64,000 bases of DNA, from contig JAVKGX010000001.1 in NCBI GenBank assembly GCA_031432545.1, positions 640,411 through 704,410 on the forward strand. The letters are read 5' to 3'. Shown here in pieces: positions 15,823 to 20,866 of this stretch (the stretch's first letter is position 1; each line of letters begins with the position of its first letter). Both the position numbers and the translations under genes were made by a program. The notes beneath the pieces are model-generated. The model was not told the DNA's origin, searched no databases, and worked only from the letters and a program-made list of their open reading frames with translations. Source of the stretch: Armatimonadota bacterium (GTDB lineage Bacteria > Sysuimicrobiota > Sysuimicrobiia > Sysuimicrobiales > Sysuimicrobiaceae).

Positions 15823-15900
15823 CGGGGCGTGGCGCAGCTTGGTTAGCGCGCAGCGTTCGGGACGCTGAGGTCGGCGGTTCAAATCCGCCCGCCCCGACCA
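15823..15900 (+). tRNA. tRNA-Pro (anticodon CGG)
   Basis: A complete 78-nt cloverleaf. Acceptor arms CGGGGCG (15823-15829) and CGCCCCG (15890-15896) pair, the D stem is GCGC/GCGC, the anticodon stem CAGCG/CGCTG encloses the loop TTCGGGA with anticodon CGG, and the T arm is GGCGG-TTCAAAT-CCGCC. The discriminator is A and the CCA end is encoded. A TAGAAT hexamer at 15762-15767 is a weak -10 candidate. The 3' half lies inside a direct repeat. Confidence 0.95.
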
Positions 15901-15998
15901 CAGATCCGGAAGAGGCAGGCGTCGGGGAATCCACCGTGGCTGGCTTTGTGGGGTACAACCGCCGACCTCGGGCCGGGGTCCCCAGCCGGTCGGCATTG
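15871..15998 (+). repeat. Direct repeat, copy 1 (contains the 3' half of tRNA-Pro)
   Basis: About 128 bases, from the end of the variable loop through the T arm, acceptor strand and CCA of tRNA-Pro and about 98 bases downstream, recur at 16048-16175 with only a few mismatches. The copies are offset by 177 bases. The downstream part holds a GC-rich hairpin (CCGACC...GGTCGG) that could act as the tRNA terminator. Confidence 0.9.
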
Positions 15999-16047: not shown

Positions 16048-16175
16048 TCGGCGGTTCAAATCCGCCCGCCCCGACCACAGATCCGGAAGAGGCAGGCGTC
16101 GGGGGATCCACCGTGGATGGCTTTGTGGGGTACAACCGCCGACCTCGGGCCGGGGTCCCCAGCCGGTCGGCATTG
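16048..16175 (+). repeat. Direct repeat, copy 2 (tRNA-Pro 3'-half remnant)
   Basis: The second copy begins with TCGGCGGTTCAAATCC and carries the T arm, 3' acceptor strand and CCA but no 5' half, D arm or anticodon arm, so it cannot be a functional tRNA. A 49-bp spacer (15999-16047) separates the copies. Such a duplicated tRNA 3' end is the form left by site-specific integration or by tandem duplication; no integrase gene is visible nearby. Confidence 0.85.
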
Positions 16176-18777: not shown

Positions 18778-19038
18778 ATGGAATGCCCCCACTGCGGTAG
18801 CGAGAACGTAGTGCCGAACATCACGATCCGCTGGAGTCAGGTGCGAGGCGTGTTCCTGCCGCGGCGGGGCAACTACTGCACCGCCTGTGGGAAGTCGTTC
18901 GAAGGCCAGGTTCCCGAAGAGATGGCGATCCGCACCGTCGTGCTGGAAGAACTGACCCCCGCGATCCGCAGCCTACAGGAAAGCGGCGACGTCATCGTCG
19001 TCCGCCACCGCAACGGCACCCACGAAGTTATCTTCTAG
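18778..19038 (+). CDS. Small zinc-ribbon protein, unknown function
   Basis: An 86-residue protein starting MECPHCGSENVVPN. Two C-x2-C knuckles (CPHC at 3-6 and CTAC near 34-37) indicate one structural zinc, followed by a mixed helix-strand C-terminal half (IRTVVLEELTPAIRSLQ, DVIVVRHRNGTHEVIF). It begins 44 bases after the RNase P RNA and may sit on the same transcript. The arrangement resembles YgiT/MqsA-type zinc-finger N termini, but no DNA-binding domain follows. I do not recognise the family. Confidence 0.65.
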   Translation: MECPHCGSENVVPNITIRWSQVRGVFLPRRGNYCTACGKSFEGQVPEEMAIRTVVLEELTPAIRSLQESGDVIVVRHRNGTHEVIF

Positions 19039-19210
19039 AAACACACGGTTTCCGTGCGGCGCACCCGCCTGGCGGACTGCACACTTCGCCACACGGTCGG
19101 GCATCACAACACCTGGGCACCGGCGGTCCTTTCGGCCCAATGGGTTGTGGTCCGTTGCCCCCGGGCTGCTCGATATGCGGTTGTGGATGCGTCAGCGGTG
19201 GAAATTTTCC

Positions 19211-19275
19211 TTGTCAACAGGCAGGAATCGTGTAGTGTGAGGAGAACAGTGGGGAAAAGTGGGGAAGTGTGGGGA
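19211..19275 (+). promoter_or_regulatory. dcw promoter with three MraZ boxes
   Basis: A sigma-70-type promoter has -35 TTGTCA (19211-19216), a 16-bp spacer and -10 TAGTGT (19233-19238). Directly downstream, three TGGGGA units start at 19250, 19260 and 19270, exactly one helical turn apart. MraZ is known to bind direct TGGGN repeats with 10-bp spacing in its own promoter, so these are very probably the autoregulatory operators. A fourth looser unit (TGGGGGA, 19289) follows. The rest of 19039-19330 shows nothing else clear. Confidence 0.85.
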
Positions 19276-19330
19276 CCACTGCAACGGGTGGGGGAGGTTC
19301 TGAGGCGACGGCTGCCGTGGCTGGAGATCG

Positions 19331-19753
19331 ATGCTCAAGGGCGAGTTCGAGTACACCCTGGACGACAAGGGGCGGGTGGTCATACCTCCTCGCTTCCGTC
19401 GTCAGATCGGCGACCGGTTCGTCGTGACGCGGGGCTTCGACGGGTGCGTGGTCCTGTATCCGGAGTCGGAGTGGGCAGGTGTCGAGGACAAGTTGCGCGG
19501 CGAGCCTCTGGCGAACCGGCAGTTCGTTCGCTACCTGCTGGGATCGGCGGTCGAGGTGGAAACCGACAGGCAGGGGAGGTTCGTGTTGCCCCCGCCCCTG
19601 CGCGAGCACGCGGGCATCCAACGTGACGTAGTGGTCGTCGGGCTGATTAACAAGCTCGAGATCTGGAGCCGGGAGCGGTGGCAACAGTACCTGAAGCAGA
19701 CGGTGCAGGACGAGAGCAGGCTGATCGAGGGGATGAAGGAGTTGAACCTGTAG
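19331..19753 (+). CDS. mraZ: Transcriptional regulator MraZ
   Basis: A DNA-binding AbrB-like ring protein that represses the dcw cluster in the organisms where it has been studied. The 140-residue protein has two SpoVT-AbrB repeats: residues 5-50 (FEYTLDDKGRVVIPPRFR) and 75-120 (AVEVETDRQGRFVLPPPLR), each with the DxxGR turn. The length is normal. It opens the dcw cluster below a promoter with TGGGGA repeats. A 198-base gap with a long inverted repeat separates it from rsmH. Confidence 0.95.
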   Translation: MLKGEFEYTLDDKGRVVIPPRFRRQIGDRFVVTRGFDGCVVLYPESEWAGVEDKLRGEPLANRQFVRYLLGSAVEVETDRQGRFVLPPPLREHAGIQRDVVVVGLINKLEIWSRERWQQYLKQTVQDESRLIEGMKELNL

Positions 19754-19784
19754 TTAAGGCGCAAGGCAGAGCAAGGACACAGAG

Positions 19785-19928
19785 GATGCGCAGAGAACGG
19801 GGCCCGGAGCAGCCTTCGACGCAGCGCCTTCGCAGCAACGACGCGCCGCTACTCGCTATCCCCCTCTGCCCGATGCGAAGAGCACGCAGCCGCATCGCAG
19901 CGCCACCGGGCTCCGTTCCCTGCGCATC
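19785..19928 (+). repeat. Long imperfect inverted repeat between mraZ and rsmH
   Basis: The 23-nt arms at 19785-19807 and 19906-19928 are complementary at 22 of 23 positions (one G-U wobble counted as pairing, one A-C mismatch), enclosing 98 nt. A smaller internal hairpin (GATGCG/CGCATC) lies in the loop. The stretch has no coding potential. It could be a structured RNA element controlling read-through from mraZ into rsmH, or a decayed small repeat element. Confidence 0.75.
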
Positions 19929-19951
19929 GTCGTTCGCACGAGGTCCCGACG

Positions 19952-20866
19952 TTGCCAAACGGCGCGCACACGCCGGTCCTGCTCGCGGAAGTCCTCAAGT
20001 GGCTGCGGCCACGTCCGGGCGGCGTCTACGTGGATGCCACGGTCGGGGCAGGCGGGCACGCGGCGGCGATCGCAGAGCACATCGGACGGGAGGGCAGGCT
20101 GATCGGGATCGACCGCGACCCCGAGGCCGTCGGGGTGGCCCGTCGGCGTCTTGCGGGTTTCGGCGACCGCGTGCGAGTGGTACGCGCGAACTTCGACAGC
20201 CTGGACGCAGTCCTCGCGGAGCTGGGGATCGAACAGGTAGACGGGGTGCTGTTCGACCTAGGTGTCTCCTCGCTGCAGTTGGACGCTTCGTCGCGGGGCT
20301 TCAGCTTCCGCGACGTGGGGCCGCTGGACATGCGCATGGATCCGACCGGGGGCCAGACGGCAGCGGATCTGCTCAATCGCCTGCCCGAGCGTGACCTCGC
20401 CGACATCCTGTATCGGTACGGGGAAGAGAGGTTCGCGCGGCGCATCGCGCGCGAGATCGTCCGCCGGCGGCCTCTGCGCACCACCGAACACCTGCGGGAC
20501 GCAGTTCGGGCCGCCGTGCCCCGGCGCGCGTGGCCCCGCAACGTGGATGTGGCCACGCGGACCTTCCAGGCGTTGCGGATCGCGGTCAACCGCGAACTCG
20601 AAAGCCTGGAACGGGCGATACCGCAAGCGGTGGGACGGCTTCGGCCCGGAGGACGGATCGCGGTGATCGCGTTCCACTCGCTGGAGGATCGCATTGTCAA
20701 GCGCGCGCTGGCCGGCGACGGGCGGCTGGTGGTCCTCACGCGCACGCCCGTGCGGCCGAGCCCGCAGGAGGTGGCGCGAAATCCTCGGTCGCGCAGCGCC
20801 CGCCTGCGGGTCGCCCAGCGCCGGGAGACCGAAAGCGGAGGACAGGACGCCATCTCCCGACCATGA
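19952..20866 (+). CDS. rsmH: 16S rRNA (cytosine-1402-N4)-methyltransferase
   Basis: Methylates C1402 of 16S rRNA at the ribosomal P site. The 304-residue protein has the N-terminal HTPVLLAEVL, SAM-binding DATVGAGGHA, FDLGVSSLQLD, MRMDP and the C-terminal VIAFHSLEDRIVK motif. The TTG 19952 start is supported by a GAGG ribosome site at 19940-19943 and the family N terminus. The stop overlaps the ftsL start by ATGA. Confidence 0.95.
   Translation: MPNGAHTPVLLAEVLKWLRPRPGGVYVDATVGAGGHAAAIAEHIGREGRLIGIDRDPEAVGVARRRLAGFGDRVRVVRANFDSLDAVLAELGIEQVDGVLFDLGVSSLQLDASSRGFSFRDVGPLDMRMDPTGGQTAADLLNRLPERDLADILYRYGEERFARRIAREIVRRRPLRTTEHLRDAVRAAVPRRAWPRNVDVATRTFQALRIAVNRELESLERAIPQAVGRLRPGGRIAVIAFHSLEDRIVKRALAGDGRLVVLTRTPVRPSPQEVARNPRSRSARLRVAQRRETESGGQDAISRP

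Follow-up and report, generated by a model that had tools for sequence, protein, structure and literature searches.

Few bacterial operons are as conserved as dcw, whose first gene encodes the repressor MraZ. To our knowledge, how bacteria separate MraZ from the essential genes downstream is not settled. The mraW RNA motif (RF01746), a structured RNA candidate of the dcw operon, is located at the mraW (rsmH) gene in the account given in PMC3890552 and is tabled for Actinomycetales in PMC2864571. UpsM, the dcw leader RNA of Rhodobacter, is likewise a non-coding RNA of the dcw cluster and lets only part of transcription pass; in the description of PMC5089854 it is assigned to one bacterial family and lies upstream of mraZ with an intrinsic terminator, whereas the element reported here follows mraZ and was found with no terminator-like site. 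The decRNAs are stable RNAs carved from the dcw transcript by RNases, the one from ftsI having stem-loops at both ends; these lie inside coding sequences (mraZ, ftsL, ftsI, murE) of enterobacteria, whereas the present element occupies a gap between genes and is known from sequence alone. A long, near-perfect terminal stem around a long insert is also the anatomy of the 23S rRNA intervening sequence (IVS) of Coxiella, whose terminal stem, according to PMC4990558, measures 28 bp and contains one mismatch and a bulge; RNase III excises it. That IVS is part of an rRNA and a demonstrated RNase III product, whereas the element lies in an mRNA gap, carries a conserved, repeat-bearing loop and is documented so far at the level of nucleotide sequence. 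Finally, rut sites are characterised in PMC6407284 as C-rich, G-poor, unstructured, untranslated stretches of at least 78 nt with cytosines every 11-13 nt. The loop of the element resembles them in having C over G, no conserved fold, no coding signal and a length of at least 78 nt. We know of no requirement in rut sites for a fixed sequence, an enclosing stem or a 17-nt core, whereas the loop has both a fixed core and an enclosing stem.

The element is a previously uncatalogued RNA element between mraZ and rsmH. A search of positions 19000-20800 against Rfam 15 gave three matches, each far below its gathering score, and no match to RF01746 at E-values up to 5. The mraW motif was rejected as an identity for the element: none of seven genomes reached its gathering score (50 bits), the best score being 20 bits at a site elsewhere; among the sub-threshold RF01746 matches listed, none lay at the element, and one control genome scored above the cut-off. 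An intrinsic terminator was rejected as well, no short-loop GC hairpin with a T run being found on 18900-20100. In the literature, as far as it was covered, no RNA element between mraZ and rsmH was described for this phylum.

The window, i.e. the whole stretch of 64,000 nucleotides that was analysed, contains a dcw cluster with mraZ, rsmH, an open frame matching penicillin-binding protein (below curated cut-offs) and murE. The upstream gene mraZ (19331-19753, + strand) scored above the cut-off of TIGR00242 (NCBIfam) and matched PF02381 (Pfam); the downstream gene rsmH (19952-20866, + strand) scored above the cut-off of TIGR00006 and matched PF01795, and its start codon is probably TTG, as judged from the GAGGT at 19940-19944. 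The 198-nt gap between the mraZ stop and the rsmH start (19754-19951) contains an inverted repeat, which was confirmed where the initial annotation had placed it: the arms GATGCGCAGAGAACGGGGCCCGG (19785-19807) and CCGGGCTCCGTTCCCTGCGCATC (19906-19928), separated by 98 nt, form 22 pairs over 23 positions, of which 21 are Watson-Crick and one is G-U (19801/19912), the remaining position being an A-C mismatch (19794/19919). In an alignment of relatives these arms form a covarying stem of 24 pairs on the + strand, the 24th position (19808/19905) being A-A here. The loop (19808-19905, + strand) is C-rich and G-poor and has no conserved fold; 94-97 nt separate the 24-nt arms in the seven genomes that carry the element.

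The initial annotation had considered the repeat too long for chance, a claim that depended on how G-U pairs were counted. With G-U unrestricted it did not hold, as six shuffles of the window contained three placements in which 22 or more of the 23 positions paired. Once 21 or more of these pairs had to be Watson-Crick it did hold, since none of 40 dinucleotide shuffles contained such a repeat and the mraZ-rsmH site was the sole passing place in the window. At least 19 Watson-Crick pairs among 22 were present in 2 of 40 window shuffles. Repeat length alone is suggestive and not conclusive evidence against chance, because repeats in which G-U pairs are freely allowed are not rare in a GC-rich window; the question is settled by the conservation and covariation seen in aligned relatives. 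One further placement in the window had 22 of 23 pairs with G-U unrestricted (start 46699, 23 nt, span 205); it has fewer than 21 Watson-Crick pairs and is perhaps a chance occurrence.

MraZ was searched for in 61 genomes and matched in 51; the gaps compared were those of the best 30 of the 51, all from the phylum, with the other 21 MraZ-positive genomes (nine of them in the phylum) outside the comparison. Both mraZ and rsmH were found at all 30 compared loci. The element, 142-145 nt in length, was present in seven of 43 phylum genomes (G000, which is the genome of the window, and G001, G002, G003, G004, G005 and G008), and these are all the genomes of families f1 and f3 with a MraZ match; the f1 genome G006, which is 72% complete, had neither a MraZ match nor the element. 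Non-carrier gaps measured 81 nt or less in 22 of 23 cases, and that of G011 measured 310 nt and was unrelated in sequence. This 310-nt gap (locus L035, family f6) holds a different hairpin with arms ccccagaaat and atttctgggg, which may be an unrelated RNA element arisen at the same operon joint. A covariance model (R1) built from the seven elements and searched against the 43 phylum genomes with stricter filters, 73 candidates being scored per genome, gave one match in each carrier and nothing in the other 36 genomes; weak opposite-strand echoes appeared at the element positions in five genomes. In a midpoint-rooted tree of concatenated MraZ and RsmH from the 30 loci, all seven carriers fell to one side of a branch supported at 100/100, and a single origin followed by vertical descent would therefore suffice to account for the distribution. 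The distance from the mraZ stop to the left arm varied among the seven carriers from 6 to 31 nt, and a likewise variable 0 to 73 nt separated the right arm from the codon that aligns to residue 1 of rsmH.

In the alignment of the seven sequences, 10 of the 24 stem pairs were changed on both sides yet still paired in at least one sequence. Paired cells amounted to 92.3%, against 81.1% in shuffles, and the stem covariation score to 0.381, against 0.179; none of 500 shuffles reached either value. In slid controls the paired cells dropped to 27-51%. The number of further pair types in the stem was not raised (13 vs 13.2). Two positions pair irregularly: pair 10 is A-C in six of seven rows and A-U in G008, and pair 13 is a mismatch in five of seven rows. 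Because pairing was kept through double-sided change at 10 of 24 pairs, with no equal in 500 shuffles, the stem is evidently maintained by selection. Covariation on the minus strand was as strong, with 95.2% of cells paired and 11 pairs changed on both sides, and the folding energy of the minus strand was lower than that of the + strand in all seven sequences. The minus strand pairs equally well, so the alignment alone cannot tell the strand; we infer transcription of the + strand because the element sits between two co-directional genes of one operon. The covarying pairs that the initial annotation had suggested looking for in relatives were found, and its proposal of an RNA element is supported, with the same position in seven f1/f3 genomes with a MraZ match, 10 covarying pairs and no shuffle of 500 as good. 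Its further suggestion, that the element may partition MraZ from the remainder of the dcw mRNA, would agree with where the element lies. On these alignments the element very probably has a conserved RNA structure, and a cis-acting RNA of the dcw mRNA appears to be the best reading of it.

The 98 nt between the arms had been treated as a spacer, but the loop carries a 17-nt core, 11-nt repeats and an excess of C over G, and is the most informative part of the element. Its + strand C/G ratio was 1.64-2.04 in all seven genomes, and the flanking genes, read on the mraZ-rsmH sense strand, had on average G over C in each; in G001 and G003 this sense strand has elsewhere a stretch more C-rich than their own loop. 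Within the window, 0.85% of 96-nt windows on the + strand and 5.6% on the minus strand reached the C-minus-G value of the loop. The core, CCCCCTCTGCCCGATGC (19860-19876, + strand), has 17 columns identical in G000, G001, G003 and G008, which represent three genera and two families, and reads CCCCYCTGCYCSAYGC across all seven genomes; genus g3 has a related, pyrimidine-rich version. Loop columns outside the core were 32.5% identical among G000, G003 and G008, and a run of 17 identical columns would be expected about 4e-7 times, a rough figure that takes columns as independent. In predictions for the + strand, the core exceeded the rest of the loop in mean unpaired probability in six of seven sequences (by 0.01 in G005), with a tie in G002. 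Neither strand showed a conserved interior fold, the predicted fold being weaker than that of column-shuffled alignments (z +1.4), and z-scores for folding of single loops ranged from -2.1 to +2.4. Interior helices of the loop were accordingly rejected, being no better than in column-shuffled alignments on both strands. A small ORF or leader peptide was also rejected: substitutions showed no codon-position (phase) bias and many frames were open on both strands. An ATG within the left arm opens a frame that begins PLCPM in G000, G001, G003 and G008, with a stop within the element only in G001 and G003. The gap had been described as non-coding, with which the lack of a coding signal in the element agrees.

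The repeats have an ACGCAGC-like heptamer as their unit. In the window a first array of 11-nt-spaced units occupies 19819-19847 on the + strand (ACGCAGC at 19819, TCGCAGC at 19830, ACGCGCC at 19841) and a second array 19884-19901 on the same strand (ACGCAGC at 19884, TCGCAGC at 19895). Using one sequence per lineage (G000, G003, G008, G005), hexamer matches with at most one difference numbered 32 at distance 11, against 4.65 in shuffles, and none of 1000 shuffles reached 32 at any of the 17 distances examined; distance 22 was also raised (15 vs 4.07). By genome, the distance-11 matches were 6 in G000, 1 in G003, 1 in G001, 12 in G008, 7 in G002, 14 in G004 and 13 in G005. The repeat is thus weak in genus g2 (G001 and G003, with one match each), where the spacing favours 12 over 11 (7 vs 1 in G001, 4 vs 1 in G003). 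A letter-by-letter lag test was weaker, with lag-11 z values of 0.1 (G000), 0.5 (G003), 0.3 (G001), 2.6 (G008), 2.6 (G002), 2.2 (G004) and 2.1 (G005). Among the 43 genomes the exact triple unit occurred in the G008 element only; with up to two mismatches allowed, the three-unit pattern matched the G000 and G005 elements, with two mismatches, and was not matched in four other elements. At that tolerance the pattern was not enriched elsewhere, with 126 matches in the 43 genomes against 126 for the reversed control.

A loop resembling an idealised rut site, its C bias and the presence of Rho and RNase III genes together lead us to favour, tentatively and at less than even probability, an attenuator or insulator after mraZ in which a Rho-type loop is gated by the stem. 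In such a model the ribosome-free loop behind the mraZ stop codon would serve as a loading platform for Rho, or alternatively for another oligomeric binder of single-stranded RNA with a period of about 11 nt. Part of the transcripts would end after mraZ, and the repressor would thereby be made independently of the essential downstream genes. Whether transcription terminates or reads through would depend on the long stem closing when the right arm emerges, or on a factor bound at the core, and the closed stem would mask the rsmH start behind the right arm. Rho is encoded in all seven carriers. The loop is, by prediction, unstructured and ribosome-free as rut sites are, given its lack of conserved interior fold and of codon-position bias. 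All seven loops pass the first RhoTermPredict step (cytosines every 11-13 nt and C/G above 1 over 78 nt), a step of little power because 27% of + strand and 55% of minus strand 78-nt windows of the background pass it too; requiring a C/G of 1.8 or more leaves 0.7% of the windows on the + strand and 3.9% on the minus strand. A stricter six-YC pattern was found in only one of the seven loops. The 12-nt spacing in G001 and G003 would be tolerable for binding to single-stranded RNA. The likely start codon of rsmH in genus g2 is 3 nt past the right arm in G003 and 9 nt past it in G001, with no clear Shine-Dalgarno sequence; at loci L028 and L029 the likely starts are 3-9 nt past the arm and at L032 and L033 at its end, again with no clear Shine-Dalgarno sequence. 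With starts so close to the right arm and no clear Shine-Dalgarno sequence, stem closure may also mask initiation of rsmH translation.

The main rival is a processing site for RNase III, in which the stem would be cut in both strands in the manner of an IVS, splitting the mraZ from the rsmH mRNA and releasing a loop that is degraded or used; we regard this as a real but not a likely possibility. RNase III usually acts on near-perfect stems that span some two helical turns or more, and the element offers 24 pairs with 92.3% of cells paired, apparently selected as a duplex, with predicted arms-only energies of -44.9 to -49.9 kcal/mol on the + strand. The mismatches at pair 10 (six of seven rows) and pair 13 (five of seven rows) also suit such a substrate, RNase III is encoded in all seven genomes, and the Coxiella 23S IVS, in the description of PMC4990558, is an RNase III-excised structure of similar anatomy. 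However, RNase III and long stems are both common, and processing leaves the C bias, the 11-nt repeats, the fixed core and the narrow range of loop lengths unexplained. Rho alone, for its part, leaves the closing stem and the fixed 17-nt core unexplained. The core, which neither Rho nor RNase III explains, may be the site of a further factor, and attenuation and RNase III processing could act together. That core, identical across three genera and two families and with the highest mean unpaired probability in six of seven predictions, is also what speaks for a loop that binds a regulatory protein or RNA, or that is released to act in trans as an RNA whose seed is the C-rich core, a reading we consider improbable. 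In the genome of the window alone, a perfect 20-nt complement of 19858-19877 occurs at G000:C1:581732-581751 (E 0.0025); it lies upstream of a SBP_bac_5 (solute-binding-protein) gene, 6 nt before an ATG (L002:1501-1520). This complement is missing, however, upstream of the orthologous gene in all six relatives that have the gene, exact core complements in G001, G003 and G008 are confined to the element itself, and GCAGAGGGG followed by ATG was not enriched (20 matches vs 26 for the reversed control in eight f1/f3 genomes). Two of the near matches to the core complement in the genome of the window fall where one or more reading frames are open. With the complement not conserved and no wider target set, the trans-acting seed was rejected as a lead, and the complement may be chance or private to the species.

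Two readings at the level of DNA were also weighed. The repeats, spaced at about one helical turn, and the inverted repeat flanking them could bind a DNA-acting protein, and symmetrical change is also conceivable in an inverted repeat to which a single protein binds; the drift of the spacing to 12 in G001 and G003, the retention of pairing partners by arms that change in sequence, and a repeat pattern no more frequent elsewhere than its reversed control (126 vs 126 in 43 genomes) make such a site quite unlikely. The terminal inverted repeats of the element and its sharp restriction to one genome group might also be taken as marks of a mobile-element remnant (REP, MITE or IS ends), and a REP/MITE-like repeat had been suggested in the initial annotation. 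This suggestion was dropped as extremely improbable: the search for further copies gave none in the same genome and one copy at the same position in each of the seven carriers, these lie on one side of a 100/100 branch, and the arms coevolve through compensatory changes.

A bolder form of Rho-type attenuation is that the element is a dedicated, heritable Rho-loading module, with a rut array of defined 11-nt repeat and a fixed core, switched on and off by the long covarying stem and setting transcription of the operon after its repressor gene. We consider this doubtful; if true, it would be a rut element with a defined sequence and structure, which homology would suffice to recognise. The occurrence of a conserved RNA element with no match in Rfam at the mraZ/rsmH joint makes the question of how MraZ is separated testable and suggests a control point built into the operon mRNA. 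Through its loop with repeats every 11 nt, one could test directly whether Rho-loading sites can persist as defined, inherited elements.

Two further repeats were noted in the window. A 128-nt direct repeat, 98% identical, occupies 15871-15998 and 16048-16175; its first copy starts within the 3' end of a tRNA-Pro gene (15823-15900), a pattern of the kind that integration at a tRNA, or duplication there, leaves behind. Upstream of mraZ, TGGGGA occurs three times at exact 10-bp steps (19250, 19260 and 19270, within 19250-19275). These copies resemble the MraZ operator repeats of the literature and suggest ordinary autoregulation.
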